Shown here: positions 6,784-37,015 of the stretch, one piece after another
How the letters are laid out: each line of letters opens with the position of its first letter
How positions within the stretch are numbered: position 1 is the stretch's first letter
NCBI RefSeq assembly: GCF_000003855.2
Contig: NW_003101652.1
Location: forward strand, 453,259-517,258
Source of the DNA: Blastomyces gilchristii SLH14081
Taxonomy: Eukaryota > Ascomycota > Eurotiomycetes > Onygenales > Ajellomycetaceae
Direction: 5' to 3'
DNA: 64,000 nucleotides
The notes under the pieces: generated by a model
Seen by the model: only the letters and a program-made list of their open reading frames with translations
Told to the model about the DNA's origin: nothing
The model's database searches: none
Made by a program: the position numbers and the translations under genes

Positions 6784-7041
6784 TGTAAGAAATCCCGCTC
6801 CTCGCGGATTCTTTACCTCTATTCCTATCTCTCGCGTAATCAATAGAGTTAGCGACTCTTGACTACACACAACTATATAGACTGGAGTTTGCGAATACTA
6901 TTCATAACTCAGCTTGAATACTATTATACATTTAATCTTTACATTTTATCTTTCTACTGTGAATACTTCTAGTAGTTAACAGTATATATTATATCAAGCT
7001 GTAAATATCTGAATAATCATTTATAAGTACTTATTCTTATA
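6784..7041 (+). repeat. 5' LTR of gypsy A
   Basis: The LTR starts TGTAAGAA and ends TTCTTATA (TTCTTACA in its sisters), perfect 8-bp inverted ends in the family. Its first 80 bases keep CG pairs (CCCGCTCCTCGCGG, CTCGCGTAATC) that the 3' LTR has lost. Confidence 0.93.
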
Positions 7042-8520
7042 TTTCAAGCTCAGTCAGTCAGCAACTGTCTATTATAACTGAAAGAACTTAAAACTTGTAT
7101 ACTTCAATCTCTGTGAACTCTACTACAGACACTCAGAAGCAGTCATCTGAATCATGAATAACTCTTATAAAAGAAGTCTTAGAGAACTTATTAGTTACTT
7201 ACAGAATATCATTCTCTATATCTGTGACAGAGAAACTCTCTGAATTCACAAATGAATCAATCTCAGTGAAGAACATTCTTGAGTATCTCTTACAGAATTA
7301 AGCTATTTTTCTACAAGAAATGCTTACTGTCTATAAACATTCTTAAACTAAGTCTCTAGATATAATCTTCAGAGATACTTATAAATTGAAAAGAAACTTT
7401 CTTAAGCTGTGATCACTTAAGACTAACTATTAAATCACAATCTATAAAAGCTTTTATAAGTTTGTATTTGAAATTGACTTACAAGCCTAACTATATGATA
7501 TAAAAGATGAAGAAGCTGTTATCTATATAATGACAGATCTCTACTATACTTAAGTCAAGAACTGACTGAATTTTCTAGAGAATAATTATGAGAGATTCTA
7601 CTAATCTGTTCTGAAAATCTATCTAGAGAATAAGTTAAGAAACTCTGTGAGCTGAATAAAGAATATCTGAGTTATAATCATCAATATTAGAAAAAGAGAT
7701 GAGAAATCTGATAAAGACTACACACAGTACTTTATGAAATTGTGATATAAATTAAGACTCATAGAAATAGAGCTCTGAAATAAGATCTGAATAATAATAT
7801 TCATGAAGAGACTGAATAAAGATATATAGAATAAGCTCATTAAGTAAGACTCTAAGTTCTTGACTCTGAAGAAACTGATAACTCTGATTCATTACTTATG
7901 AATTACTGTAAGAGTTATAGATCTGTAGAGAGTGAATCACTGATCAGCTCTGTAAGAGTCAGAATAATAGAGAACAGATTTATCAGAGAAAGATAATAAG
8001 ATACAGAGAGATTCATATCTGACTACTGAGTAGAAAGAAAGAGCTTCATAAGCTTCTATGAATAGAGTATATAATAGAGAGACTAAGAAAAAGAGTCTGT
8101 ACTTTATCTGTTTTAAATTATAATATCTTCATACAAACTATTCAGATAAATTAAAATAGAAATTTAAGAAGTCACAGACAGAGTCAGTAACAGCCTTCTT
8201 AAGAATCTTAAAACTGACATCTGAATCTATTACTCTCTCAATGAAAATACATGCTTATAGAGAGAGATTATACTGCAGTACTGCTGTTCTGCAAGTTATT
8301 GATAAACTCAGAATCTCAGATCACTGTAGTGTCTCTAAAGCTTATAAATTGAATAAGCTGAATGATGAAAACTGAGAATCTGCTCTTATAATAAGCAGAG
8401 TATGAGAACTCAGATCTGAGAGCTGAGAGACTTATAAGAGTTATCTTTGAATTACAAGATCTCTCTGAAATCTGAAGAAGATTTGTGAAAACTATGATTA
8501 TTAAAAACATCATAGATAAT
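7042..8520 (+). pseudogene. Gypsy A gag with zinc knuckle
   Basis: This is a helical, lysine- and glutamate-rich reading frame with many stops, ending in a decayed zinc knuckle at 8,100-8,140. Copy A reads Y-F-I-C-x4-Y-x4-Y; copy B at 41,022-41,062 keeps different cysteines, and together they show the C-x2-C-x4-H-x4-C pattern. Gag packages the element RNA. No start codon is certain because of the erosion. Confidence 0.7.
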
Positions 8521-18174: not shown

Positions 18175-18420
18175 ACTTAACAACCGCTTCACCACGAACT
18201 CGCTCGATTTTTCGAATAAGAACCCGCCGATAGATTTATCGAAAAGCCTTTGATCATATGAGCATTTTGACCCCGTCGCTGACTGCATACCCTGTGTGGT
18301 GGTGGAGTTATCCAGCCAAATGTGAACCAGATGTTGTTTGAAACTCCTGTGTGGGATTATCCCCTGTTCTCCCCTATCAAACCACAACCCTGTACCAAAT
18401 TGCCATAGAAATTGTAAGGT
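18175..18420. other. GC-balanced, unmutated island at the LINE 5' end
   Basis: About 245 bp inside the eroded LINE have ordinary composition, with several CG pairs (CACGAACTCGCTCG, CCCGCCGATAG, CCCCGTCGC) and CC/GG pairs. A minus-strand frame of 72 codons (18,169-18,387) is open across it, but I recognise no product. Because repeat-directed mutation spares single-copy DNA, this may be a captured host segment or a part of the 5' region unique to this copy. Confidence 0.6.
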
Positions 18421-18490
18421 GAAGAGATCTAGTCATATGCATCAATCTTCTCAATTTTGAAAGATTTCTGATCTGTAATTGTGAAGATAT

Positions 18491-18812
18491 CTGAGAAGTG
18501 ATCTCTGTGAAAACCCTGTTCATCTTTAATATTTCAAAACATTAATGCCAAGTCTTACCCTTATACCGCCCTTCTCAATCTGGCTTATTCTCAGCAGAAA
18601 AATACAAAAAGATATGTCAGTAATAATATCAAGTATATAATCAATGAATACTTCTGAAGTGTAATCTCTGTAAATACTCTGTCTGTCTTCAGTGTATCTA
18701 GACATTAACACTAAGTCTCACTCTTGTATCACCTCTCTCAATCTGACTTATCTCTGATAGAATAATACAAAAAGATATCTCAGTAATAGTATCTAATACA
18801 TAATCAGTGAAT
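18491..18812 (+). repeat. Two tandem copies of a 161-bp unit in the LINE 5' region
   Basis: Unit 1 (18,491-18,651) and unit 2 (18,652-18,812) share GAAGTG-ATCTCTGT, ACATTAA-(G/A)C-AAGTCT, CTCAATCTG-CTTAT and AATACAAAAAGATAT in the same order and spacing. Unit 1 is less mutated (CCGCCC versus CACCTC). Tandem 5' monomers serve as promoters in some LINEs; that role here is inference. Confidence 0.7.
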
Positions 18813-19800
18813 AATGAGTTAACAGAACAAGTTAACAGCACATTAACAACTATAAATTCAGTATATCTCAAGATCAGACTGAGTCTTTGATCCCTGCACA
18901 GTGAGATATATTAAATCTAGTTTTAATATCTTAATATTTAATAGATTCTGTAAGAAATTAAGAACAGCAATACTAGATTTCTATTGAATTTAAGAATTAA
19001 CTCTATATTAATATAATCATTGGTAAAGTCTTCTATTTTAAGATATAAATAACCAGGTTCTCTACATTCTGTTGATAATATTTATATTATTATATAGAAA
19101 CAGACTTATATTCTCTATAATATCAAGACTCTGAAGAGAGAAAGTCTTGATAGAGAGTATATAGTAGTGTATATCTTAGCAGTTTCTATCTCATTCTTCT
19201 ACAGCAGTTAATGTAAAAAAAAAAGATCTTAGAAATAGTTTTTTACTTCTCTTGAAAAAGTAAGATATTTTTCTCTGAGTTTTATATAATATTCTTACAA
19301 AGAATTAAAAACAGAGTTATTTTCTATTATAATTTCATATTCTTTTAAATAAGAATTACTTTTTCAGTAACTGAAGAGCTTTTATTAATACTTAATTCTT
19401 TTTTACACTCTTTATTAACTGATTTGAGCTGTATACTTATTATGTGAGAAGAATTGAATAATTTAGAATAAAATTGAATAGTTTTAATTAATTTCTCTGT
19501 AAAAAATTAATTTATTTTTTATCAGTTTTTCTTTCAAAAACTATTATATTATCTGATTTATTATCAATTGATATTATACTTTTTCTCACTATATTCTAAG
19601 AAAGAGATTGTAAAGATTTTATTAATTTATCTTAAAAATCAATTTTAATTTATTAAATTCTCTTTAAAAATCTAATCTAGTTACTGAACTAGAGTGAAAA
19701 AAAATCAGATGTTTTATATATAAAAGTTGTTTATTCTTCTTTTGAAACAGTCTGATCAACTTTTCATTGAGTAAGAATAATAAGTTTAAAAATACACTCA
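18813..19800 (+). other. LINE copy 3 5' region, no gene seen
   Basis: This is very AT-rich sequence between the tandem repeats and ORF1, with poly-A and poly-T runs and no frame I can support. Confidence 0.6.
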
Positions 19801-19803
19801 GTT

Positions 19804-21004
19804 GATGTGAAGAAAGATGCTTTCTCAAATACTATTTCTGAGATTGAAATTCTGAAGAGAAGAAAGAAAGAAGAAATAGAGAAATAATAAGTTCTTAAAC
19901 TACAGAAACTTGAAAAAGCAAGTAAGATTCTTGAAAAGCAGTATCTTAGTGAGATGAATGAAGAAGTTCTGTTAATTCTTTATACTCAGACTAGACAACT
20001 ACAAGAAGTAATCAACTTCAAACTTGGAATTTCAAACACAGTTCTAAAAACATTGAAAATTTCTAATATAATCGCTGACTCTTCAGTTTGCTCTTCTTAT
20101 GTTTCTACTTCTTCTTCTTCTTCTTTAAATCAGAAGAAAATATATACTCAAGCAGCTGAATCTGCTATCTCTAAACCTGCTATCTCTAGATCTACTAGCT
20201 GAAAACCTGCTCAAAATTCTGAGAAAACTGAGATAAACACTGCTCATACTTTTACTGATAGAAAAATGAAGAAAAAAATGTAAAAAGACAAAAATCTTCA
20301 AATCTTCAGAAATAGAAGACTTATTCTCAAAGTCTTAAATCAGAACATCTTACAGAGAAATAAGCTAAACTCAAATCTTATTTTCAGAATTAGAAATGAA
20401 ATCAATCAGCAGTTCTTTTCTCAGTTAATAACTGATATTAAAGTTCAAGAATCAGTTATAGCTTCAATTGAGTCATTCTTCTTTGAAAACTTTATCATTC
20501 TGACTACAATCTCTAAATTTAGTACAGAATTTCTTATTCAGAATGAGAATCTCTGAAAATCAGCAATAGAATCTTTGTTAAATATAATAATTCTATCTGA
20601 GAGAGATGAAAAGTAGGATAAATTCATTCTTTATAATATTTCAGTTGAAATCTTTGACTGTGAGAAAGAAATACTACTTCTCAAAAATGAATTAGAAGAA
20701 TACAATTCTATTCAACTGAGAAAAGAGTCTGTATGACTTAATTCAATTAAGTTCAGACAGAGCAGAAGAAATGTCTCTGTTTTAGTATATATAAAGACAC
20801 TTGAACAATCAAGAATCTCTGAAGTAAGAGTAGTAGATTTGAAAATGAAAGTTCATGAATATAAAGACTCAAGAATGAATCTTAAAACTCAAACACAGTG
20901 TTCAAACTATCAAAGATATGAATACTTTGTAATCTCTTATTTCAGAGATGTAAAATGTATATTCTTTTCTCGAGATCACAAAACTAGTGAGTATAAATGT
21001 AAAA
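19804..21004 (+). pseudogene. LINE copy 3 ORF1 (nucleic-acid-binding), first part
   Basis: The frame opens with a lysine- and glutamate-rich coiled-coil stretch (EIEILKRRKKEEIEK and following, about 19,850-19,970), then a threonine/serine-rich linker. A region at about 20,600-20,860 is typical of LINE ORF1 proteins (KFILYNISVEIFD...LKNELEEYN). It ends in decayed zinc knuckles at about 20,899-21,000 (CSNYQRYEYF, VKCIFFSRDHKTSEYKC) where some cysteines have become tyrosine. LTR element D interrupts it after codon K at 21,004 and the frame resumes at 29,358. ORF1 binds element RNA to form the transposition particle. Confidence 0.8.
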
Positions 21005-21185
21005 TGTGGTTCGGAAGAACGTACGACCGTCGGATAATAACCGGCCGCTTCCGAACTCTAGCGTACGTGTACAAGTGTAAAGGGGCCATACGGCCGCTAA
21101 TTAATTTAGCGTACGATATTACAATATATAAGAAGCCGGCGTACGCTGGTAATCATACACTGGCTTAAGCAACCTTTGAATCACA
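21005..21185 (+). repeat. 5' LTR of element D, CG-rich
   Basis: This short LTR carries four CGTACG palindromes (near 21,020, 21,062, 21,110 and 21,140), two CGGCCGC blocks and one CCGGC. It is far richer in CG than anything nearby. The 3' LTR has lost three of the four CGTACG sites by C-to-T or G-to-A change. Confidence 0.9.
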
Positions 21186-21640
21186 TCTGATAGCATGTCT
21201 AAAAACTAGTGAGAAGTGCAGGCTCCTTCAGGGCGTGATAATTCCATCTACAAAGCAATTCATAGTTATCATGTCAGTGTGGTTCTAGAACATCTCAAAA
21301 GATAGTGTATGAAGAACAGTGAGTGAAAGAGCATCTGATTGATGCTGCTTCACTTGTTGAGGGAAAACTCCACACCCAGGCAAATGCCACATAGGCGAAC
21401 AGATGAGGTGTGAGAAAGGGGATGAGAGCAGTGAACCAGATTTAAAGAAGTTCACTCTCTACTCAAAAGAAGGATAAAAGAGAGGGGTGACCATCACCAG
21501 AGTTGTACAATGATAACAGAAATCATATAACAATATAGTGATATAACAATATAGTAATAGAATGATATAGCAATATAACAATACAGTGATATAATAATAG
21601 ACATCATATAATCAATGAGAAATCACTGAAATGAATATCT
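21186..21640 (+). other. Element D leader with AT minisatellite
   Basis: This is a noncoding leader of moderate GC content. Between about 21,523 and 21,600 it carries imperfect tandem units of the type ATAACAATATAGTGAT, about 16-17 bases long. No primer-binding site was assigned. Confidence 0.6.
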
Positions 21641-23060
21641 TTTCTAGTTAATACAAATAACACTCTTCTCTGCTACCTGAACTGAAAGATATGCAGAACC
21701 TCTCAGAGAGTTTACTCAAAGCAGTAAGAAAAGCAGTCAAGACTGCTGAATCAGAATTGAAGCTCTGTACATGTACAAGAATTCTAAACAAGATTGAGAT
21801 CTTGTGTACACAGTGACAGACTGAGATGAAAGCTAAACAACAATTGACATTTGCTGTGAATCAAGTATTCACTATAAAGAGCTTCATCAATGCAATCATC
21901 ATCATTAATAAAGACAGAGAAAATCAGATCTCAGACCTGCAGCAGAAGATCAAACATTTACATAGATAGATAACTATACTAAATCTGAAGATCTCATCAC
22001 AATCATTCATAATCTCTTCAGAAGTATACACACTATCAGAGACTGCTGTGCAGAATGAGAATTCAAGCATGAGATATATCAAGTCAGAAGATCTGCTGAA
22101 GTTATTAAGCTTTAATAATAACTGAAAAAATAATGCTGTAATCAGTTAGCTAAGTCAGATATAATTATATTATCAGATTAAATATGAACTCACAGACAGA
22201 TAGTTAATAGAATTTCAACAAGTCTTAAGATCTGCTACATTTCTACATAGAAAAGTGAAGTTATTATGAATGACTGATAAAAAGATAAATCTCACAGATC
22301 TGAAGTGATATTTATTTCTATAAATATGAAATAAGTTTTTCAAATGAATCTTGCACAACTTTGAGAAAGTGAATATATAAGATAAGTATTATAAATACTT
22401 CACTGAGTGTAAATAAGTAAGTGATCTTATATTATACTTCACACACTTCAGCTTACACTATTTTGTGTTGAATGAAGAGCTTTTAACATCTTTCTATTTA
22501 TAGATCTTCATTCATAATCTTACACCTGAGTTGAGAGTGAAATGAAAATGCTTAATCTCATAGTCAGACATAGTGAAGAAAGTATACAATATTCTTATTA
22601 TATAAGAATAAGTAAGTTAATTGTAACAGAAAATACTGCAATTAAGTATATCTCAGCAGAGAACAGATAATCAGACTTCTATGATACAAGTTATACATCT
22701 GAATGTGATAAATCTAGATCTGAATGTTATTGCTAAAGTATTAAATTCTCTGAAAAAGAGATTTTCTGAGTGAAAATCTTGATATTATAAGTATTAAGCT
22801 TGCTTCAACTGCAGACATTAAAATCATGATATAAAAGATTGCACTCAGTATACACAGTTAAGAGAAGTAAGAGAGTTAAAAAACTAGCAGAATCAGTGAG
22901 CTTGAAGACACTCACTGATATTCTATGAAAAGCCTCTAAAGTGAAAGAGATGTCTGCATTAAATAACTCTCTGAATTCTATGAATGTAAAGAAGAAGCAG
23001 GCTTCTGAATGAGATGTAAATGAGAATGAAGTAAATACTCATCTCAATGCCTTAAGACTC
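21640..23060 (+). pseudogene. Element D gag with zinc knuckle
   Basis: A glutamine- and leucine-rich helical start (PELKDMQNLSESLLKAV, coiled-coil like) leads into a gag core and then an intact zinc knuckle at 22,801-22,842: CFNC, H at the fifth position after it, and C four residues on (C-x2-C-x4-H-x4-C), with one TAA inside. Several TGA and TAA stops interrupt the frame. Gag would bind and package the element RNA. Confidence 0.78.
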
Positions 23061-26000
23061 AAAATGTTAATGTATAGAAGACACTTGAATAAGAATTGAG
23101 AGATAGCTGTAAAAGTGTTAGCAGATATAGAAGCTTCTATATAATATATTAATAATTATATAATCTGAAGATTGAAAGAGATTCACTGAGTGAAGAATTT
23201 CTGATGCATAAGATTATCTAATAACTGATATTTAATATTATCTGTAAGAGTAAGAGTTCTCTTGTACTTCAGAGAATGATCTTGCTATATTTAAGTACAA
23301 GAGCTGCAGAATGTGAAATACAATCTTATTCTCAGACTTAATTAATTTCAAAGATTTAATCTGCAGATTCAATGACATACATGTCATATGCAGTTGACTG
23401 ATAGAAAGAAAACAGTTCATACAATTCTATCAACTGATATGAGAAGAACATTTCACATCTCTGATATAGAAGAATTAAATCTGCTTATATATTAATAAGT
23501 AAAGAGAACAATTCACAAGATCTCATCTGAAAGCATTCTGTATGTTATACAGAATCTGAAAGTGAAGAAAATCAAGATAAAAGATATATAAGAGAATAAG
23601 TGTATAAAGAAGCTTCTGAAGAAGTATGAGAAGATCTTCTGAACAGATCTTTCATCAGAATTGCTGCTGAAATGAGGATTTATACATGAGATTGACATAG
23701 AGGATGCAAAACCAGTCAATCAGAATGCATACTCTCTGTCACAAACACATCTTGAAGAACAGAAGCATCAGATCACAGATCTTCTAGAACATGATCTCAT
23801 ATGACTCTTATCAAGTGTGTGAGGCTTTTCAGTTCTATTCATAAAAAAGACAGATGAGAAGTGATAGATATGTATTAATTATCAAGCACTCAATAAGCTT
23901 ATAATCAAGAATGAATATTCACTATCACAGATTCAATAACAGTTGAATATGATTGAAAACACCTGATATCTATTGAAGATCAATTTTCTCTCAGAATACT
24001 GACAGATTCATGTAGATGAACTGTCAGTTTCATGAACTACATTTAATATGCAATGAAGAAAGTTTGAATTCCTGATAATATTATTCAGTCTGATTAATAC
24101 ATCTGTCATCTTTTAAATGATGATGAATATGATTCTTCATAAACAGAATAAAATCTCATATCTCATATATCTTGATAACATTCTAGTCTTTTCAAACTCA
24201 TACAATAAACATCTGAAGCATCTCAATGAAGTGCTTACAACTCTGATAGAGTATAAGCTCTATATTAAATCAATCAAGTGTGTGTTTGAAATGAAAGAGT
24301 TGAAGTTTATAGAACATGTAGTGAGTAATAACTGTATACATCTCATCTCAGAGAAATTGAATGTTATAGTGAATTGACTGCAGCTGAGAAATGTACACCA
24401 TGTACAACAGTTTCTTAGATTGATCTCATACTACTGCAGATTCATCAAGAATTTCACACAAATATCTATATCACTCTCAGATCTCTTAAGAGAAACAGAT
24501 ACAAATCTGTGAAAGAAGAAGTTTCATTCAATCATCTGAAATACTGTATGTAAAGAGGCTTTTCTCACACTGAGAGAACATATAATAACATTCTCAGTGC
24601 TTATTCAATCAGATCATGATAAATCTTTCTACATTGAGATAAACACATCTGAATAAGCTATCAGAGGCACTCTTCTACAGATAAGCAAGAACAGCAAGCT
24701 GCATCTAATGATGTACAATAATAGAAAACTATCAGATGTCAAGCTCAATTACTCAGTATATGAAAAGAAATTACTAGTGATTAAGCATATGCTGATGTTG
24801 TGAGATAGATATATTAACAACAGGTATATAATAACAGTGATCATGAATCATGAAAGCCTTGTCTATCTACAATCAATAATAAAACCTTTTAAATGCTTAG
24901 TACATTGAATCTCAGAGTTTCAAGTGTATAATCTTCATATCAAATACTGAAAGAAATCAGATGCTATGATATCTGACACAATCAGTCACAGACCTGATTT
25001 CATGAGTGAGAATTCTGCAAATCAGGCATAAGAAATATTCACATTAAATGCACTGAGAGAATGCAAGAAATCAGAATGAGTGAATGTCATGATCTCTCAC
25101 TTAAAGAATAACAAGATGTCAGATGACAAGTGTCTTACAAGAGTAGTAGAAGAGATGCTTTCAAACTTCAAGCTGAGAAAATTAGGAAATGAAAACAATG
25201 TTATGCTTTACTATAATCTAGTATATGTAGAAGCTCTCTATCTAGAATCTTTATTTAGATGTGACTTGATAACTTGCATGTACAAGAAATTCAGTCACTT
25301 AGAAAGCCCTGGACTTATAAATGTACTCAAATCAAGAGTATACTGACCAAGCATGACTGAGGACATTCAGATATATGCTCACAAGTGCCTGAATTACCAG
25401 CTTACAAAAGAATCTAAGAAAGGGTTAGAATATGAGAAAGCACAACATCAGATAAAGTGTATAATACAACTGTTTAAACAATAAGAGATAGATTTCATAG
25501 ACATATTATCACAAACATTAAATGAAAATCAATGAATAATCACTGCTATTAATTACACTACTGACTGATTAGTTGCAAAAGCAGTTTCAGAGGCAACAGA
25601 GAAAGTGATGATGAAGTTTCTATATAATGAGATCTATGTCAACTATGAAATACTGTGCAAGATTCTAACTGATAATGATATGAACCTTGTAGAAGAAGTA
25701 GTGAGGTATTTCATGAACTAGTTACAGACAAGACATTATAGAACAATACTATATCATTCACAGACAAATGAGAAGATGAAACACTTGAATGAAATCTTGA
25801 GCAACATGCTGATGAAATATCTAGTGAGCAAGCCTATAAGACTATAGAATGAATATCTCAGACAGACACTATTAATCACACAGATTCAACAGCATGCAGT
25901 CTTTAAGCATTTATCATTCTACCTGTTGTATGGATTGCATCCGTGCATCTCAGAGAATGCTTTGAAAAAGGTGAGAGAGAGAGCAGTTATGAACACAGTA

Positions 26001-26700
26001 AGAATAGTAGTTACAGATGCAGCAGGAACAGCAGTTACAGACACAGCAGTAGCAGTTGTGAACACAACAGTCACAGACACAGAATCAAGATTAAAAGAGA
26101 TCAGCCACACACATACAAAAGCTAATAAGTTACTCCTGAACTGAGCAATTCAATTAAAAAGAATACAAGACTCACTTGTTAAGAAATTGAGTCTCAAGAT
26201 AAGAATATAAGTTTTCATATACAATGAGAGTTCTGAGAAGTTTCAATCTAGATAGTTTAAGTCATATAAAATACTTAAATCACACTCTCTGAGAATGTAT
26301 GCATTGAAAGAATCAGAGGGACAGATCTTATACAACTTAATCAATAATTCATAACTTATGAAAGTAAAGATGTAAGATCTGAGTGAATTATAATCATTCA
26401 CAGCACTATTATCAGTATTGAAAAAGAAGAAACTTATAATTGAAAAGTCTCACAAAGTAAGAGAAATCATAGACACTTATGAATCAGATAATCTTACTTA
26501 TTCTGATCTTTTCATAATTATAAGAAAAGAATGAGAAGTAATAAAGAAATCAGATGAATATCATACTTCAATAAGTAATAAAACTGTAGCTGATTGTATG
26601 ATAATGCACTGCAAACAGTGAGTGCAACACAGTAAAGAGTAATCTCAAAGTGACAGACTTGTATATAAATCAGATTGCAGAAGAAAAAGAAATTCAGAGT
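23060..26700 (+). pseudogene. Element D pol: protease region, RT, RNase H, integrase
   Basis: RT occupies about 23,750-24,370 (KKTDEK...MCINYQALNKL; catalytic YLDNILVFS at 24,167-24,193, where the family has YLDD, so the second aspartate is lost). RNase H follows (FYIEINTSE, then KLNYSVYEKKLLVIKHML near 24,750). The integrase zinc finger is at about 25,280-25,400, the core includes WEIDFI-type and ILTDN motifs at about 25,490-25,690, and a GLHPC segment ends it near 25,940. The C-terminal domain runs on to about 26,650 (KFQSR-FKSYKILKSH). Stops sit mainly at tryptophan positions. The clustered short frames at 25,919-26,144 in three registers are repeats of ACAGCAGT type within pol. Confidence 0.87.
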
Positions 26701-27185
26701 TAAATTCAACTGTTTACACCAGTTCAATCACAGAGATCACAGAGGACAAACTATCTGAAACATCTGTAGACATGTGAAACCAAGCTATCTCAACTTCTGA
26801 GAACACTCAGAGATTGAGTGAGATTAGTTTCAATAAGCTGTTTACTGTAGTGATCTGAGCAGGTGAAGAGAGACAGTATAATACACAAGACAGAATTACA
26901 AAAGATGAAAGCTGTCAAACCTAGTTACTGAATACTGTATTATATAGAGATCATGTAAGAGTAGTGACTAGCAGATAAAGAAAAAGTGTAAGAAAAGAAA
27001 TAATGAATTAGTTATCAATCATAAGAGTTGACTGTAAAAGATAAATGTTATTATACACATCTCATTCATTTTCATACATTACATGTTTAATCTATTTCCA
27101 ACATCACATCACCTGAAAAACATCAAAAATAAAAGAAATCTCAAAACTCAAGATCTGCAAGGGATTTGAGAGCTGTAAGCTGCTC
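26700..27185 (+). other. Element D 3' spacer, no gene supported
   Basis: The sense pol frame fades out around 26,700-26,760. I see no further motif before the antisense frames. Confidence 0.5.
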
Positions 27186-27852
27186 TTATAATAACACTGT
27201 GCACATCTCTGATTCCTCTACTACTCTGTGTACAACATTAATGTCATTTATTACAAGATTGACTGGAATGCCAATATAGAAATGCGCATGCATATGTGTA
27301 GAGAAATTAAAGAAGAGCACAGAACTCACAGAATCAGAAGCCAGAACAGAGAGAACAGAGATGAAAGAAACAGAAGAAGAAGAAGATGCAGAACTGAATA
27401 AATAACAGCAGAAGTCATCTGAGACTGAACACTTACAACCTGGTATACACATAACCTTCTCTGCAGAAAAGAGAGAGAAAGCAATGAGAGAAGCTTGAGA
27501 ATGAAAGAAGATAGTCTCAGTGATGTTATCATCTTCAATGAGAATGACCTCTGACACCAGAGTAACTAAGAATCATTGTTAGCATACAAAAATCACAAAA
27601 GCAGGGATAACAATTACTGAATGAACACCTGCTGGTCTTAGAATTGTACATGCAATTACAACACACACAAGGCTTCTCAGAAAGAGAGAGAGAGATATGA
27701 GAGAATGTAGAAAGCAGAACACAGCATGCAAACAGCTCATTCTCATAACAACATCTCAGATAAGATATATGAGTCTCACACCTGTGAGTGTAAAAGAGTA
27801 TAACATCTGCATTTCTATTTCTGAAAACACAGATATCTTTTATCTGCATCAT
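27186..27852 (-). pseudogene. Antisense frames in the 3' part of element D
   Basis: Two overlapping minus-strand frames, 27,535-27,852 (105 codons, cysteine-rich: HRCETHISYLRCCYENELFAC region and CVCCNC) and 27,186-27,557 (123 codons, with an SSASSSSS run), lie between integrase and the 3' LTR. They are longer than most sense frames in this decayed element. They could belong to an antisense gene carried by the element, as reported for some plant gypsy families, or be shadows of a lost sense frame rich in arginine, glutamate and glutamine. I recognise no domain. Confidence 0.35.
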
Positions 27853-28180
27853 GAAGTTAAATAACAGATACTAGAGAATAGGCTGATATAAATCTATCAT
27901 TCTAAAGAAATTTGTCAGAGTGAATGTTCTTACAATATTGAACTTTACAGTTGTAAAAAGTTTCTTAATATCTGTGAATATCATAACTTCATATATAGTA
28001 AAATTCATAATAATTTTCTCTAAGAACAGAAAAATCAGCATTAGAAAGAAAAGATGAAAAAGAAAAAGACTTACAATCTTAATACTGTTAAGAAGAGAAG
28101 TGATTCTCTGAGATGAATGAATAATTATTTCATCATAAATATTTAAAATAAATGTAATAATTGATGTCTGTAACTGAGCT

Positions 28181-28639
28181 TCAGATAATCATGTTATATA
28201 CTGTCTTTGTACAATAGATTATTCTAGAGATTAGTAAGAAGAGTGAGAGTGTACACACTGAGAAATATGATTCATCAAGTCTACACAATATCTTCTTAAA
28301 ATGAGGAGAGCTGATAATGAAAGCAGAGACAGCAAAACCAGAGAGAGCAGAAGTAGTGAAAGTAAGAATCACAGAAACAGGGGTAGCAGAAGTGAGAGAA
28401 CCAGATACAGAAGCAGGTGTAGAAGATTGAGAGGGAGCAGCAGAGGAAGAAACAGAAGAGACAGGGAAGAATGCAGAAGACTCAGTCACACATGATATAA
28501 ACAATTCCTTCATTATTGCATTCTTCAGGTTCTTGATCAATGATTCAACATTGAGTTCACTATCATCAGTGAATGTGAATCTGTCAACATGTGAAGATTC
28601 TATATAAATAAAAACAAATATATCAGCATCTGTGTTCAT
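28181..28639 (-). pseudogene. Antisense 152-codon frame in element D
   Basis: A minus-strand frame starts with ATG at 28,639 and is open for 152 codons, the longest uninterrupted minus-strand frame outside the right-hand unique DNA. The N-terminal half is ordinary (MNTDADIFVFI...ELNVESLIKNL), the middle is a serine/threonine/proline/valine-rich repeat region, and the end is hydrophobic. The overlapping plus frame 28,301-28,495 is arginine/serine-rich low complexity. No family is recognised. It sits about 0.5 kb before the 3' LTR. Confidence 0.4.
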
Positions 28640-29173
28640 GCAAAATCATGTCAGAAAACATAATTAGAAACTCACTGAGAAGAAGAAATGATCAAGAGTG
28701 TATAAGAAGATGAAGAAGATATGTCATCATTCATGATAATACATTATTCTGACAATTATTAGAAGATAAACAAGTTCTGATCACATTTCACAATGTGTTA
28801 CACTTACTGCTAACAAACTGCCTGATATGAGCACTATGATGATGCTTGTTATGAAAATGAGAGGTCATTGCCAGAAACATGTACAATGTGATAGATGAAC
28901 AGATAGAAAGAGTTGAACAGAAGAAGAAGTAGAAATCTGAGATAGTGATAGCATTTGATAATGATGATGATGAAGATAATGATTAAAGAATGAGAAAAGT
29001 AAGTGAATGAGTGATGTAATATAGTGAAAGTTTCTTTGTGAGAGTGTATACAGAATGCTAGCTGAATCAGAGATAGGTCACATGATTGTGAAACACTAGT
29101 GGCGAGCTAATCCGCATGAAGCTAGGGTGTATGATATGATCACATGAGTGTGACTGAATCTGGTGGAGGAGGA
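28640..29173 (+). other. Element D 3' untranslated region
   Basis: The region contains GATGAT-type trinucleotide repeats near 28,950-28,985 and a stretch of nearly balanced composition at 29,090-29,173 just before the LTR. No gene is seen. The purine run GGTGGAGGAGGA immediately before the LTR is in the right place for a polypurine tract. Confidence 0.6.
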
Positions 29174-29357
29174 TGTGGTTCGGAAGAATGTATGACTGTC
29201 AGATAATAACGCGGCCGCTTCCGAACTACTAGTGTATGTGTACAAGTGTAAAGAGGCCATAGCGGCTGCTAATTAATTTAGTGTACAATATTACAATATA
29301 TAAGAAGCCGGCGTACGCCTGTAATCGTACACTGGCTTAAGCAACCTTTGAATCACA
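29174..29357 (+). repeat. 3' LTR of element D
   Basis: The LTR matches 21,005-21,185 over its full length. Differences cluster at CG sites: CGTACG to TGTATG, ACCGTCGG to ACTGTCAG. One GCGGCCGC and one CGTACGCC remain. LTR pairs are identical at insertion, so these changes happened in place afterwards. Confidence 0.9.
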
Positions 29358-29790
29358 AAAACATGTTTAAAAAGAGATGAAATATGTTAATATACTCTGC
29401 TTAAGTGCTTCAATTGTAAAGAAAAATATGCATTTAGTTCAAAAGAATGTGTACTTACTCTAAGAACTTAGAAGAAGTGAAGAAAAGATAAAGCTCAAAG
29501 TACATGTAAAATTAAAGAGAAAAGTCAAGCTAGTAAATCTGTAACTACAAGCTTAAAAAGAAGAAACTCTCAACTATCTAGATCTTCAAACTTCAATTCT
29601 TCAGCTAAATATAAATAGAATTTGAATTCTCACACTTCTGTTAAGATTAGAGAATTGAGAAATGACTCTGATAATAAACTAGATATAATGTAAGTATTTG
29701 AGATTTCTACTTTTCAAAATAGTTATAATCTACTATCTGATAATAGTGATTAGATTCTACTTGATCTCTACTCTCTTTTAGTATAAATAT
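29358..29790 (+). pseudogene. LINE copy 3 ORF1, second part
   Basis: The frame resumes from 21,004 with K-T-C-L-K, then a zinc-knuckle-like cluster at about 29,407-29,452 (KCFNCKEKYAF...KEC) and a serine/lysine/arginine-rich tail to about 29,784. Two or three stops interrupt it. Confidence 0.72.
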
Positions 29791-29841
29791 ACAACAGAAA
29801 TAACAAAAAAAGTTTAAAAACTCTTTAAAAATCACATTTAT

Positions 29842-31196
29842 ACAAAATAATGTGAATAGAAACTCAAAGTGTATTTATTCTTATCTTCAAATTATATTTG
29901 AATAAAAAGTTAATTTTGTACTGCTTCAGAAACTAAATTTCAATGCTGAGTAAAATATATCATTTCTTATTCAAGCTACTACTGCTTTCTATCTCAAAAG
30001 TCTGAGATAAAGTCAAGAGTAGTGATCTGTGAAAGAAAGAGATCAAGATATTAATTTAATCTAAGATTTAATATTATGTCTGACTCTGATATTCTGATGA
30101 GTGATATTATAGATAAAGAGAATGAGTTTAATACTATACAGCTCATAAATATCTATAATGAAAAGTCATTGAAGAAAAATAATAATATCTGAATAATTAA
30201 TAGAGGATTTCTGAACATAACTTCATTAAGAAACTCTATAATTGTAGAAGATTTTAATGCATATCATCTTAAATAAAATTCAGAATACAAAAGAGCAGTA
30301 AGAGTAGATAATCTGATTGAATGAATCTTTGAGTATTTAATAGATTTAGTTCACAAGTCTGATCAACAAACATTCTTTAGAAAAGACATGAAATAGAAAT
30401 CTATTATAGATTTAATCTTCATGTCATAAAATCTAATAAAAAAAGAACTTGTAAACAGATTTATTGATTTAAATGAGACATCAGAATCAGATTATGAGAT
30501 TATTCAATTTAATATTGAACTGANNNNNNNNNNNNNNNNNNNNNNNNNNNNNNNNNNNNNNNNNNNNNNNNNNNNNNNNNNNNNNNNNNNNNNNNNNNNN
30601 NNNNNNNNNNNNNNNNNNNNNNNATAAATGAGTGAAAATCCTCTTCTCTCTAATCAGTTTAACTTTGTAAAAGCTGACTCACAGCCAGTTGAAGAAAGCA
30701 TAAAACTGTTAAAATCTGAAAAGCAGAGTGAGGTATATTGAAATCGGGTTCAAGATATCTCAGATGAAATGCTTGAGAATATAGTGAAGCTCATTAGATC
30801 TATTATTCTAACAAGTGCTAGAGATAATATTTCAAAGAGAAAGTCTTCTGAGTATTCAAATCCTAATAAAATGAGAATATCATATCTAAAAGAAAACAAT
30901 TAGCTACTGCTAGAAGAGATTAAAGAATGATGTAATATCTGATAAAGAGTTCAAAGCTGTCAGAAATGAATATTTTTCAGATATTAAAAGAGCTAAAACA
31001 GACTGCTGGAATAAATTTCTTGAAGAAGTATAAGAAAAGAAAGTTTTTAAAGCTTTTAACTATACTAAAACAAGAAGTGTAGTAAAACTTTCAGCTCTAG
31101 AATATGAGTTTCAGAATGAATCATATACAGCAAATTCTTTTGAAAAAAAGTGTCAAGCTTTCATGAGAATTCTCTCTCAAAGGTCATCAGATTCAG
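29842..31196 (+). pseudogene. LINE copy 3 ORF2, endonuclease and N-terminal RT (with gap)
   Basis: The APE-type endonuclease starts near 29,842 with QNNVNRNS, followed by FVLLQK, which stands for the QEP motif, and VEDFNAYH at about 30,247-30,270, matching GDFNAHH in this family. The 100-N gap (30,524-30,623) removes its end. After the gap the linker reads DCWNKFLEEV...KVFKAFNYTKTRS, as in copy 2. The endonuclease would nick the target. The frame is cut by the chimeric insertion at 31,210 and resumes at 34,021. Confidence 0.82.
30524..30623. other. Assembly gap of 100 N
   Basis: Exactly 100 undetermined bases inside LINE copy 3 ORF2. The round number suggests a scaffold gap of unknown true size, so net lengths and continuity here are provisional. 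Confidence 0.99.
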
Positions 31197-31209
31197 ATTC
31201 AGAGAAAGA

Positions 31210-31631
31210 TTATTATTATTATTATTCTTCAATTATAGATGTATACAGTTAGAGACTATGACATCTACCTGAGAACTTTTAGTTCTCAGGGTTTTTCCTA
31301 TATCTGTAAAGTTAACTATTATACATTTACCAATTTCAGATATGCAAAATCAGAAAGTTCCAGCTCAGAATATAAAAACTGTTTACAAATTGCAGTATTT
31401 TAACATCTTCTGACACTTTGAAATCATTTGAGAATATCATGACAAAAGAAAAGAGAACACAGTCTTAAAGATAGACACATTAAATAGATAGATAGAAAAG
31501 AATTAAAAGAAAAAGATAAAGTAAAGAGAGACTGTAATAAAACAAATTATTAAAAGATAATATATAGCTGTTTTAACAGACTATATCTGATTGATTTCCT
31601 CCTCTTCATATTCAGATATTTCTGAATTTAG
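31210..31631 (-). other. LINE copy 4 3' UTR, perfect stem-loop, TAA tail
   Basis: On the plus strand it starts with TTATTATT (the inverted TAA tail). The hairpin at 31,268-31,290 has the same perfect 10-bp arms as copy 1 with a 3-base loop. The rest is colinear with the other 3' UTRs. Confidence 0.85.
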
Positions 31632-32754
31632 TCATTTTCTTATAGCTGCTTGAGTTTCTGATAGAAAGTCTATTAAGTATTTAATTTCTGTCTCAGTTGA
31701 GAATAAGAATCTTATATTTAATTAATTTAGATTATACTTCTCTTTCAATCTGACTCTGAGACTATTGTATAATGCACAGTGTATTATAATATACTCAGAA
31801 TTCTCATTTATATTCCAGAATGAGCATTCTATTGAATTAAATCTATTCTCAAATCTTTGTATATAAGATTTGAAATAGCCATGTCCTAGTTTCAGCTGTA
31901 TTATAGATGAGAATATTTTCTTTTTACATTTAATTGAACAAGATTTTCACTTGGGTTTTATTTCAAATCTTGAATAATATATACTCTTCTTTTGTTTCTG
32001 CCAGCTTTCATTTCACTTGTCTAAACAAGATTCTTTTATTTTTCTCTTTATAAAAGATCAGAATATAATTTTTTGAATAGATCTGCTTAATTCTGAACTC
32101 TTTTTTACAGCTGAATCAGCCAATTCATTGTCATGAATATTCATATGAGTAGAAACTCAGTGCAGATGAATTATCAGCTTTGATATTCTTCTCTTTTGAA
32201 TTCTCAAAACAGAGTTTAAGATCAGTTCAAGATTCATTTAATCACTATAAATCTGACTATTTCTAAGTCTTTTTAAAGCAGCTTGACTATTAGAGAATAT
32301 TCATATCTCTTTCAAACTATTTCCTCTTTTATAAGATTTTATTTCAATGAGTTTGAAAGCTTTTACTATTATAAATAGTTCAGCATCAAAGACTTCAGCT
32401 TCACAGCCTAAATTTCAGAAATCTGAGATAAAATTAATACTATCTTCAGTATAAGCAATGTCTGCATCTAATCTATTCAAATTCTCATTTTTAAAGTTAT
32501 CTCAATAAATCAGAATAGAGTCTTCTATATTAATTGTTGAAATTCTCTTCAAATACTGTTCATATTCTTTCTTCTTAGATAGTTCACTTATTTATAAGTC
32601 TATAAGATATTCAAGCCTTTCTCTCCAGAGAGATATCTTCTCATGGTCAACTTTTTCAATATTTAAAGAAGAAAATTGATTTTTAATCAGTGAGCATATT
32701 CTGTACAGTTGAGAAGGCATTTTCTTTGAAGAATTATTTTCATTTCAATTAAGA
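31632..32754 (-). pseudogene. LINE copy 4 ORF2 fragment with RNase H
   Basis: The minus-strand frame carries the RNase H block (decayed SDG, VFDAELF, SQAALK, NELADSA) and the C-terminal cysteine motif, ending in TGA at 31,632-31,634. Colinearity with copy 2 (about 15,185 onward) stops abruptly at about 32,754, where unrelated GC-rich sequence begins. The RT domain is missing. Confidence 0.82.
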
Positions 32755-32908
32755 CTACGGGCGCTAGCCACCCGCAGGATGCATCTTAAGCTAATTACAT
32801 TTAACTCTCTATAATTAACTGATTACCGCGTCCGTCCTCTCGGGCCAGCCACTAATTTCCAGGGGTCTTAGTTAGTGGCTGCCACCGCTCACTTGATGAT
32901 GTACACAC
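32755..32908 (-). other. Unmutated GC-rich piece in the chimera, with hairpin
   Basis: About 150 bp of balanced composition with many CG pairs (TACGGGCGCTAG, ACCGCGTCCGTC, CTCGGGCC). It contains a 10-bp inverted repeat, CAGCCACTAA at 32,846-32,855 and TTAGTGGCTG at 32,872-32,881. It is unlike the LINE and the neighbouring sequence and may derive from a structured or single-copy RNA. I cannot name it. Confidence 0.6.
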
Positions 32909-33404
32909 TAGACTGACCGTGTGACCGTGTCTGGGACCAGGACCAGATTTTTTGATAGTCTTATTACCAATTCGACTGATCCCATTACACAGTTTTAACA
33001 TTAGATAGTAGTCTTATACTGTCTCAGTGAGACTTACTGTCTACTCTTATCACATTTTTCAAATGAGATCATGATTTCTACTTCTTAATTTAAATTATTT
33101 TTATTACTTTAAATGACTTTAAATCTCATTTGAGTGTTATCAAAAAGTGTTACTTTTTAAAAAATTAAAAATAGTCTAAAAAAAACCTTAAAATGTCTAA
33201 AAATAGTAACTTTATGCCAAGAACAGGATCAAATGAGATCACTTTCTTATTTTTTTCAAGTCATGATTTCATTTTAAGATCTGATATATAGTCACTTTGC
33301 ATGTTTTTTTAATGACTAGTCCCAGCGGGATTCACATCAAGAAATGTATGAAACCAGACCAAATGAGATCAAATGTGAAATTCATGGTCCCGCCGGCCAG
33401 TCTA
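32909..33404 (+). mobile_element. Miniature hAT element 3 (496 bp)
   Basis: The element has TAGACTGACCGTGTGACC at the left and CCGGCCAGTCTA at the right, with a perfect 8-bp duplication GTACACAC (32,901-32,908 and 33,405-33,412). It keeps TCTGGGACCAGGACC, so its ends are little mutated, while its core shows the usual AT-rich form. Confidence 0.93.
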
Positions 33405-33412
33405 GTACACAC

Positions 33413-33926
33413 CAAGCTTTCTGTTGCTAATCTCAGCCTCATTAGATGCTTATAGGCCTATCAATCAGCTGTCATGATCTTGTTCTATGTTAGGAACTAA
33501 TCATAGACTTGATGACTGCAGTTCTCCCTGCCAGTATTAGAGCTTGACAGTGAGCTTGAAGACTGTAGCCTATCAGAGTGCTCTGTCTAGAGTCTAAATA
33601 CATGTCTAGACCTGCTAGTCAGATAGTTTTCAAAATTATTTTCTGTATTTGAGAAGAAGCTAGGCTCTGATGACAGCTCTAGTTAGAGACTTACTTAAGT
33701 AGTGTATAATCACTACATTAGACTTGACTCTATATTATTAGAACCTTGACAGATGTATAGTAAAATAGTGAGACATTGACATCTCATATCAGCTCTGATG
33801 AGTGTTCACAGAATCTCACTTAACTAGTGACTTGACTTATAGTAGAGAGTTCTATTTCACACTAAGTCTTACTAATTAGACTCAGCCTCTATTACATGAG
33901 AGCTTTCATGAGTATGAAGTGATAGA
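33413..33926 (-). other. Unidentified middle segment of the chimera
   Basis: About 510 bp of moderate GC content without CG pairs and without an open frame I can support. It shows repeated TCTAGAC/GTCTAGA and CAGCTCT words. It lies between the tRNA-like head and the GC-rich piece and was part of the inserted unit. Confidence 0.5.
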
Positions 33927-34007
33927 TGTTAGTGATGAGATTCGAACCCACACATCTCTAATGTATGCGGTCATGATTATCAGTCTTACTAACTGAGCCA
34001 CACTGGC
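33927..34007 (-). tRNA. Degenerate tRNA-like sequence heading the chimera
   Basis: The 81-base minus-strand segment has GCCAGTG at its 5' end and CACTAAC plus A at its 3' end. Five of seven acceptor pairs hold, and the two failures fit G-to-A change. The box A-like TGGCTCAGTTAG and box B-like GGGTTCGAATC are both present. The T arm GTGGG-TTCGAAT-CTCAT folds with wobble pairs. CTGAT and ATTAG can form an anticodon stem enclosing 16 bases, room for a 7-base loop plus a 9-base intron. CAT is a candidate anticodon but T33 is misplaced, so the identity is not assigned. The D stem is defective, so it is probably a pseudo-tRNA. Its 5' base is exactly the insertion boundary. Confidence 0.6.
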
Positions 34008-34020
34008 ATTCAGAGAAAGA

Positions 34021-36589
34021 GAATATATTACTTCATAACTATATTAATGAAAATAACTGAGAATGATCTGAGCTTACATAAGATGAATTAGAGTCAGCTA
34101 TTTTTTAAAGTTCAGTTAAAACTGCTGCAGAGCTTGATTCAATCAATCACTTAATTATTTAAAATACATACTTCTACTTAAAGAATAAATATTTTGAGCT
34201 CTTTTTCAATCTTTTGAAAATGAATATTATTCTGAATGCTGAAGAGAAGTCACTGAAGTGATTCTTACAAAACCTAATAGAAAAACTTCAATTTTTAAGT
34301 TATGTAGAGTAATATCTCTATTGAACTGTCTAGAAAAGGTTTTAGAAAAGATAATAGCTACTTAACTATCTTTGATAAGCTCTATTAATAATTCTCTTTT
34401 ATTCAGTGAATAAATGAAAGATAGAAAACAGTGTTCTGTAATTAACACTGTTCTCTCAGTTGTTCATGATATTTAAATAGCAAAGTATGAAGATCTGATC
34501 TCAACTGCAGTTTTTATTAATATAAAAGAAGCATTTGATCATGTTTCAAAGTCAAAGTTAATTCAGACATTGAAGATGTTAAAACTGTCACTTTCTCTAA
34601 TAAAATAAGTTAACTGCTTTATATCTAAAAGAATCATATAACTGTTCTTTGATGAAATGAAATAAGACAAGACTGAGATAAAAATAGAAGTACTGCAAGA
34701 ATCTTCAATCTCACTCATTTTATTTACAATATACACTGCATATCTATTCAAAAATAGAGATATGAAAGTAGTGTGATCTCTGAGTTATATGAATGATATT
34801 GATCTAGTCTATAGCTTAAAAATAGTTAGAGAAAATTTGAAAGTGATTGAAAAAGTAGTAAAGAAAATCTTTATTAGAGCAGATATTAATTAAATTCAAT
34901 TTAATATAAATAAAACTGAGTTAATTCATTTCTTTTCTAGATTTTATCAGAAAGAACTATGTGTAACTCTTTTTAATAGAGAGATTAAACTCAGTTTAAA
35001 TATTAAATAATTAGAAGTATGATTAAACTTCAAGTTGAATTGTAAATATCATATTCAACAACAAATTATCAAGGCAGAGAGACTACTGAATAGTATAATT
35101 AAACTATTAAATACTGAGAGAGATCTATTCTTTCAGGCTATCAGACAGTTATACATAGCCTGTATTATCTCAGTAGCTGATTATGAAGTTCAAGTATGAT
35201 AAAATAATCAAGATAATTTCACTGAACTCTTTCAAAGTTTATAAAGCAGAGCTTTGAAAAGAATTCTGAGAGTATTCAAATCATCTTCTATTAAAGCAAT
35301 GAATGTGAAAGCTTCAATCTTATCTTCTACTATTTGATTTGAAAAAGCCTGTATGAACTATACTCTGAGAGTTATAAAGATGAGCTTAAATTATATAATC
35401 AGAGAAAGAGTCTCTTCTTCATTTTCATCAGTTAACTCAGGAAATGAACTGAATTGAAATAGATTTCTTGATTGAAATGAGAATAATACTTTAAAGAAAA
35501 TGCTCTCTCAACTATATAGACTATGTTCACTTATTAAAAATCAATTTTCTTTATTAAATATTAAGAAAATTGTTCATAAGAAGATATCTCTCTGAAGAGA
35601 TAAGCTGAAATCTCTTATAAACTTACAAATATGTGAACTATCTAAAGAGAGAGAATATGAACAGCATTTAAAGAAGATCTCAATAATTAATATAAAAGAC
35701 TCTATTCTGATGTACTCAGATGACTCAAAAAATGAGAATTTGAATAGATTAGACACAGGCATTGCTTATACTGAAGATAATATCAATTTTATCTCAGATT
35801 TCTGAAATTTAGGCTGTGAATCTGAAGTCTTTGATGCTGAACTATTTATAATAGTGAAAGCTTTCAAACTCATTGAAACAAAATCTTATAAAAGAGAAAA
35901 TAGTTTGAAAGAGATATGAATATTCTCTAATAGTCAAGCTGCTTTAAAAAAGACTTAGAAATAGTCAGATTCATAATAATCAAATGAATCTTGAACTGAT
36001 TTTAAACTCTGTTTTAAAAATTCAAAAAAGAAGAATATTAAAACTGATAATTCATCTATACTGACTTCCAGCTTATATAAATATTCATGACAATGAATTG
36101 GCTGATTCAGCTGTAAAAAAGACTTTAGAATTAAGCAGATCTATTCAAAAAACAGTGTCCTGATCTTTTATAAAGAGAAAGATAAAAGAATGTTGCTTAA
36201 ACAAGTGAAATGAAAGCTGACAAAAATAAAAGAAAAGTATACATTATTCAAGATTTGAGACAAAATCAAAGTGAAAATCTTGTTCAATTAAATGTAAAAA
36301 GAAAATATTCTCATCTATAATTCAGCTGAAACTAGAACATGATTATTTCAAATCTTATATACAAAGATTTGATAATAAATTTAATTCAACAGAGTGCTCA
36401 TTCTGCAATGCAAATGAAAATCCTGATGATATTGTAATACATTGTATATTGTACAATAGTCTCAGAGTCAGATTTAAGAAGAAGTATGATTTAAATTAAT
36501 TAAATATAAGATTCTTATTCTCAACTGAGACAGGAATTAAATACTTAATAGACTTTCTATCAGAAACTCAAGCAGCTATAAGAAAATAA
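34021..36589 (+). pseudogene. LINE copy 3 ORF2, RT and RNase H part
   Basis: The frame resumes after the chimera and carries RT motifs (ISLLNCLEKVLEKII, KEAFDHVS where copy 2 has KDAFDHVS), the decayed catalytic box at about 34,790 (SYMNDIDL instead of YVDD), then RNase H from about 35,690. An extra A in the run at 35,944-35,950 shifts the frame relative to the other copies. Stops are numerous; the normal terminus is TAA at 36,587-36,589. Most differences from copies 1 and 2 are G-to-A or C-to-T. Confidence 0.85.
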
Positions 36590-37015
36590 CTCAATTCAGA
36601 AGTATCTGAATATGAAGAGATGAAAATTGATTAAATATAGTCTGTTAAAACAGCTATATACTATGTTTTAATATTTTTATTTTGTTATAGTCTCTCTTTA
36701 CTGTACTTATTTCTTTCTGTTCTTTTCTATCTATCTATTTAATGTGTCTATCTTTAAGACTATGTTTTGTTTTTCTTTGTCATGATATTTTCAAATGATT
36801 TCAAAGTATTAAAAGATGTTGAAATACTGTAATTTGTAAACAGTTTTTGTATTCTGAGCTGAAATTTTCTGATTTTATATATCTGAAATTGATAAATGTT
36901 TAATAGTTGATTCTATAGATATAGAAACAACCCTGAGAACTAAAGGTTCTCAGATAGATGTCATAGTCTCTGACTGCATACATCTATAATTGAAGAATAA
37001 TAATAATAATAATAA
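36590..37015 (+). other. LINE copy 3 3' UTR, stem-loop and TAA tail
   Basis: The UTR is colinear with the other LINE 3' UTRs. The hairpin arms CCTGAGAAC/GTTCTCAGA lie at 36,932-36,954 with one terminal G-to-A change. The TAA tail ends at the target duplication. Confidence 0.85.

Follow-up and report, generated by a model that had tools for sequence, protein, structure and literature searches.

The window analysed here, a stretch of 64,000 nucleotides from Blastomyces gilchristii SLH14081, carries on its minus strand an insert (31210-34007) flanked by an exact 13-bp target site duplication (ATTCAGAGAAAGA; left copy 31197-31209, right copy 34008-34020). Read along its own strand, the insert opens with a tRNA-like head (33927-34007), mutated in this copy and recognized on the basis of the majority sequence and other copies, and closes with a LINE 3' fragment (31210-32754) ending in TAA repeats at 31210. 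This fragment matches positions 6029-7573 of the 7573-bp LINE sequence used as a ruler, that is, the terminal 1545 bp of the 7.6-kb LINE. The remainder belongs to a 749-nt unit, hereafter the module, whose first base is that of the head: module positions 1-595 (head and body) occupy 33413-34007 and positions 596-749 occupy 32755-32908, both on the minus strand, the latter terminating in a hairpin (32755-32777, minus strand; majority CTGCGGGTGGCTAGCGCCCGTAG). The junction between module and LINE falls at 32755/32754, where the LINE resumes with TC. Between the two module pieces lies a hAT-like miniature element of 496 bp (32909-33404; ends TAGACTGACCG/CGGCCAGTCTA), further copies of which occur within the window, flanked by an 8-bp target duplication, GTACACAC, read from the sequence at 32901-32908 and 33405-33412.

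A sequence-only reading of this locus had described a single retrotransposition unit in which a tRNA-headed RNA is joined to a LINE 3' end, and this description is supported both by the exact 13-bp duplication and by the junctions found across the family. Its placement of a tRNA-like sequence at the first base of the insert, on the minus strand, agrees with a start at 34007, the tRNA identity deriving from other copies and not from the window copy; the LINE tail with TAA repeats is confirmed, and the hAT element, having its own 8-bp duplication, is indeed a later insertion. The same reading counted at least three source sequences, taking the 'middle' of the insert and its 'GC-rich piece' (module positions 596-749) as separate. 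Beyond the window, 57 module loci were retrieved in full, and in every one these two segments adjoin in the same order, leaving only two sources, the 749-nt module and the LINE; a third was apparent because the hAT element, landing at 32908, split the module in two.

The insert landed in an older member of the same LINE family, which begins at LINE base 1 (18181-37012, plus strand) and for which a target duplication was looked for and none was found. A run of N (30524-30623, a gap or masked stretch, with at least 30 N before 30624) lies inside it, and it is also interrupted by a large element (21006-29368). Both ends of the latter match, in the same orientation, the same 167-bp GC-rich end of an element at locus L069, with 85% identity for the longer match and 78% at the far end, and the large element therefore appears LTR-element-like. 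The GC-rich repeat that adjoins the LINE at L069, considered as a second 5' partner, was rejected as being the end of this large element. LINE positions 1-1017 were likewise discarded as a further partner, since visual inspection of other copies places them some 830-890 bp before the next piece of LINE. With TGA read as tryptophan, Pfam assigns RNase H to the window LINE copy (E 3e-8) and gives a reverse transcriptase match under the cut-off; three LINE pieces from locus L070 yielded no Pfam match. An altered genetic code, suggested by TGA at tryptophan positions of the LINE frame, was dismissed: copies mix TGG, TGA and TAG, as well as CAA and TAA, at the same codons, and the host RPB2 gene, whose product we take to be fungal from the organisms of its closest solved structures, is open under the standard code. 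The pattern thus looks like C-to-T hypermutation. The first 250 bp of the LINE ruler (window 18181-18430) have 46% GC and a near-normal 10 CpG against 12.8 expected, and the ruler is nearly CpG-free beyond them; in the copies at L070-L073, too, the body of the LINE is all but devoid of CpG.

The search for further copies that the sequence-only reading had proposed was run over 74.8 Mb in 75 contigs. A pattern that covers the last 31 bases and tolerates transitions detects at least 156 module 3' ends genome-wide, against none for its reversed version, which excludes chance. Since the pattern catches just 34 of the 57 modules fetched whole, the true number of modules exceeds 156. A 5'-end pattern catching 23 of these 57 modules returns 88 module starts; both counts are low, and starts and ends are therefore not comparable. 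Patterns of the same type (controls 0) locate 1725 LINE 3' ends and 367 LINE 5' ends, counts that are likewise incomplete, and module ends amount to about 9% of LINE 3' ends on these two incomplete counts. Separate searches with the tRNA-like head and with the GC-rich piece scored the best 40 of 241 and the best 40 of 231 candidates, respectively. The chimera of module and LINE is thus a real repeat family, and the earlier option of a one-off template switch is refuted by the 156 module 3' ends, together with the entry of 100 of 101 module junctions read into LINE.

A majority sequence built from 57 copies has a length of 749 nt and 48% GC. The module begins with GCCAG or a transition variant in 54 of the 57 modules fetched whole and finishes with GTAG or ATAG in 57 of 57, a constancy that is partly by construction, the ends having been extended with BLAST. 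Its last 23 bases form a 9-bp hairpin in the majority sequence, and the longest stretch between stops in any of its six frames does not exceed 54 codons. Transitions make up 94% of all changes from the majority in the 57-copy alignment, and 54 of the 57 copies differ from it by 0-5 transversions, the outliers being L020 (6) and the damaged copies L068 (38) and L046 (85). This scarcity of transversions leads us to regard the copies as apparently derived from a single RNA, or from a small number of closely related variants differing at three sites, and mutated after insertion. C-to-T changes in the 57 copies occur before G (27%), before C (27%), before A (10%) and before T (3%). Repeat-induced mutation classically affects CpA, and the context seen here is unusual for that process.

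The tRNA-like nature of the head is apparent in the better-preserved copies. On the majority sequence, ARAGORN predicts a cloverleaf at bases 1-83, with a tRNA-SeC label that we do not trust, and 14 of 20 better-kept copies pass the Rfam tRNA threshold over exactly their first 81 bases (31.6-37 against 29 bits); no other known RNA family in Rfam reaches its gathering score. The head contains motifs resembling what we take to be box A and box B. ARAGORN calls a tRNA in none of 30 loci tested, and in the window copy neither this program nor an Rfam search admitting E values up to 1 reports one. At L072:1-258 (minus strand), another insert inside a LINE also opens with a tRNA-like sequence (GCCCCGGTGGCCGAATGGTTAATGCG...) and is cut by the end of the locus; ARAGORN does not call this sequence, and the insert perhaps represents a further tRNA-headed family.

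We read 101 junctions between module and LINE, taken from 77 of the 78 loci read first (L086, with a module 5 nt short, being omitted) and 24 of 64 further listed ends. Immediately after the module, the LINE starts in 91 of them, and after 1-6 nt in nine; at the remaining one (L108), a hAT copy begins 6 nt past the module and masks what lies beyond. Hence 100 of the 101 junctions enter the LINE, and no solo module is seen among the 101 ends (one masked by hAT). LINE starts are distributed over 72 positions, some 1-3 bases apart, from position 1 to position 7254 of 7573, the last being 320 bp from the LINE end; at L017 the module is fused to LINE position 1, with the first 1360 LINE bases covered. 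The source gene of the module was not found among these 101 ends, a set outside which lie 40 of the 100 listed ends and the 56 of 156 beyond the list.

The position of the junctions is strongly biased. TC constitutes the first two bases past the module in 69 of the 101 junctions and at 96 of the 156 ends genome-wide; for the first 77 junctions the count is 52, or 40 of 64 distinct positions, versus a 7% background (p ~2e-30). The LINE bases left uncopied ahead of the joint are A-rich, with A at -3 in 84% against 40%, and this richness is present both where TC follows (40 positions) and where it does not (23). The preferred motif is AAnA|TC, the bar marking the joint. It is neither required nor sufficient: 32 of the 101 junctions lack TC, and of the 30 sites in the LINE ruler that fit AAnA|TC perfectly, which together account for 30 of the 101 junctions, 17 are unused. 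CT is the dinucleotide past the module in six junctions and CA in three. Certain LINE sites are reused, most often 6447 (seven times), 3295 (five) and 6104 (five), yielding 56 coincident junction pairs versus 0.67 expected under a uniform model. Within the perfect sites alone, coincident pairs number 45, where even use of these sites would give 14.5, indicating that the motif is not the only factor. Both modules are available for seven same-site pairs. Six of the seven (one of them including the damaged L046) differ at the module variant sites, so the events look independent, although only three such sites exist, two of which have three states and may be mutable; the variant bases of the L012/L023 pair are identical and leave its members indistinguishable. 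Derived transversions common to a same-site pair were found in none of the seven. Some of the recurrence at individual sites could stem from chimeras that were mobilised again.

Target duplications of 11-15 bp flank 21 of the 23 module copies in which the LINE 3' end is covered. In 18 of these 21 the module start adjoins the duplication, with one extra base in two copies and two in another; no duplication was accepted for L021 or L073, the match in the latter lying in a T run. LINE copies truncated at the 5' end in the absence of a module also occur, with duplications of 12 bp (L010) and 13 bp (L040); both start at LINE 7396-7398 and not with TC. For a plain LINE copy in the window (13533), a duplication was looked for and none was found. 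None of these three plain 5' ends starts with TC, and the count is 0 of 7 when four less certain ends, judged by eye, are added. Module-free truncation recurs at LINE 7395-7398, leaving very short tails at L010:2658-2833, L040:2941-3118 and L059:1-164. A LINE copy at L070:2010 lacks about 780 bp, its joint resuming at LINE 1797 with TC, like the module junctions; this joint may reflect a LINE-to-LINE jump or a plain deletion.

The copies thus combine a two-part structure and constant module ends with LINE junctions that vary but are biased by site, target duplications around the whole, and no solo module among those read. They are probably best explained by target-primed reverse transcription of the LINE followed by a jump of the enzyme to a second, independent RNA of 749 nt, which it enters at the 3' end. 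A LINE encoding RNase H and ending in TAA repeats would insert by target-primed reverse transcription, and its reverse transcriptase, copying LINE RNA from the 3' end, would sometimes quit the template, preferably at AAnA|UC. The enzyme would then resume on the 3' end of the non-coding module RNA, which would carry its hairpin at that end and its tRNA-like part at the 5' end, and would copy it to the first nucleotide. The product would be a copy of the 749-nt RNA, a 5'-truncated LINE and (TAA)n, in this order, between target duplications. Such a jump accounts for the constancy of the module ends and the variation of the LINE ends, for the presence of one duplication only and for the module lying in sense orientation. 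Because the joints fall at 72 LINE positions, the family appears to have accumulated through many distinct switches between the same two RNAs.

Several steps of this proposal can be outlined from the junctions. The switch presumably takes place at the cDNA stage. The module RNA would end in ...GUAG or ...GUAGUC, and the UC of the LINE would thereby provide 2-nt pairing with the module 3' end; TC could then reflect pairing of a cDNA ending in GA with a module RNA ending in ...UC. The six CT and three CA junctions are not explained by a fixed ...GUAGUC end. The A-rich bases ahead of the joint may represent a pause site or pair with a uridine tail. RNA polymerase III would transcribe the module RNA from its internal tRNA-type promoter, in one or a few source genes outside the copies seen, and the coincidence of the module start with tRNA position 1 suggests trimming by RNase P. 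Excerpts of PMC10830420 describe both template jumping and non-templated addition by the human LINE-1 enzyme. A more specific version, which we put forward with considerable reserve, would make the 749-nt RNA a 'front-end hitchhiker', its 3' end pairing with nascent LINE cDNA at AAnA|UC and capturing the reverse transcriptase mid-template, unlike SINEs that mimic LINE 3' ends. If so, each insertion would gain, precisely at its 5' end, a promoter of polymerase III type.

If RNA were cut at specific sequences and then ligated, the same AAnA|TC preference would result, and this is the main rival, albeit an unlikely one. LINE RNA would be cut at AAnA|UC, a tRNA-type ligase would join its new 5' end to the 3' end of the 749-nt RNA, and the fused RNA would be inserted by ordinary target-primed reverse transcription. 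The clear site preference and the predominance of insertion-free joints (91 of 101) fit such a route, an RNA with a tRNA head could plausibly serve as a ligase substrate, and the parts of PMC13174262 available to us give ligation as a second way in which U6/L1 may form. It requires, however, a hypothetical endonuclease with AAnA|UC preference, and TC is more simply explained by pairing to the RNA 3' end. The lack of TC at plain LINE 5' ends also speaks against it, if weakly given so few cases, and yet the L070 deletion joint begins with TC. Trans-splicing was rejected because AG is not favoured ahead of the joint.

Two further readings deny that the RNAs were fused anew in each event. Recurrent junctions at 6447, 3295 and 6104, together with a 5' promoter of polymerase III type (its function being predicted), would suit a SINE-like composite that copies itself and spreads as a unit, close to the new composite retroelement family envisaged by the sequence-only reading. 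The spread of 100 junctions over 72 LINE positions does not suggest self-copying, and the module variants that differ in six of seven testable same-site pairs, with a common derived transversion in none, make this reading highly improbable. The SINE-like layout proposed at the same time does not extend to mobility, the 749-nt unit having no fixed LINE-like tail and no free copy being seen among those read. The module might instead be the natural 5' end of the LINE, its copies being LINEs with internal deletions or splicing, as its location 5' of the LINE and in the same orientation in the copies read would allow. This is already contradicted and hardly tenable: the LINE has a 5' end of its own (CAACCGCTCC..., the 367 matches above), eight of nine such ends covered lack the module, which lies ahead only at L017, and the joints, preceded by A-rich sequence and not AG, are not splice-like. 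With no fewer than 156 module ends, this single genome offers an extensive natural data set on why LINE reverse transcriptases swap RNAs, and the preference for AAnA|TC, the reused hot spots and a possible overlap of 2 nt are predictions that can be tested. What surprises is how strong the site preference is and how many events appear to be independent.

In its features the chimera agrees with bipartite retrogenes, showing an RNA part with constant ends, a variably truncated LINE and a single duplication round the whole. SINEs carry one fixed LINE-like tail and spread alone. Like the fungal tRNA-derived SINEs, the module has at its 5' end a tRNA head with a predicted internal promoter; unlike them, it is followed by a LINE part beginning at 72 positions, and no free unit is seen among the 101 ends read. 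AfuSINE2, a fungal tRNA-derived SINE, has a LINE-like 3' end in at least one copy, as excerpts of PMC5063351 indicate. In mammalian U6/LINE-1 chimeras, according to portions of PMC13174262 and PMC4476161, a full-length U6 in sense orientation lies 5' of a full-length or truncated LINE between target duplications, and tRNA is among the reported partner RNAs; a template jump is proposed there likewise (PMC13174262, in part). The Blastomyces chimeras share with U6/L1 the small RNA heading a full-length or truncated LINE and the target duplications, and differ in the partner, a 749-nt tRNA-headed RNA, and in the LINE, which carries RNase H and ends in TAA repeats.

The sequence-only reading had pointed to bipartite chimeras of fungi, a worthwhile lead, as the layout matches that of MINE (WEIRD-MGL) from Magnaporthe grisea. 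As described in the sections of PMC2104539 available to us, MINE joins full-length WEIRD RNA to truncated MGL LINEs between 10-20-bp duplications, with no solo WEIRD and with recurrent switch sites at a GCC*A/U motif where microhomology was not found, and the same kind of template switching is proposed. Both systems place a full-length non-coding RNA copy 5' of variably truncated LINE 3' ends, with duplications, no solo copy among those read and reused, motif-linked sites. They differ in the RNA, which here has 749 nt and a tRNA head whereas WEIRD measures about 1.1 kb and the main text of PMC2104539, as far as available, mentions neither tRNA nor polymerase III; in number, with at least 156 module ends here against 31 MINE copies (PMC2104539, same sections); and in motif, AAnA|TC with a possible 2-nt overlap here versus GCC*A/U. 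Two 20-nt WEIRD primers given in excerpts of PMC3978060 match the module majority at no more than 11 of 20 bases, a comparison confined to the primers and not the full WEIRD. Among the matches listed in a literature search, covering titles and abstract openings with most subscription journals outside its range, none reports this type of fusion between a fungal LINE and an RNA with a tRNA head. The chimera therefore belongs to a known kind of chimeric retrogene, what is new being the partner RNA, the larger number and the site motif, and it suggests that repeated fusion of one non-coding RNA to LINEs is not unique to Magnaporthe or to WEIRD.
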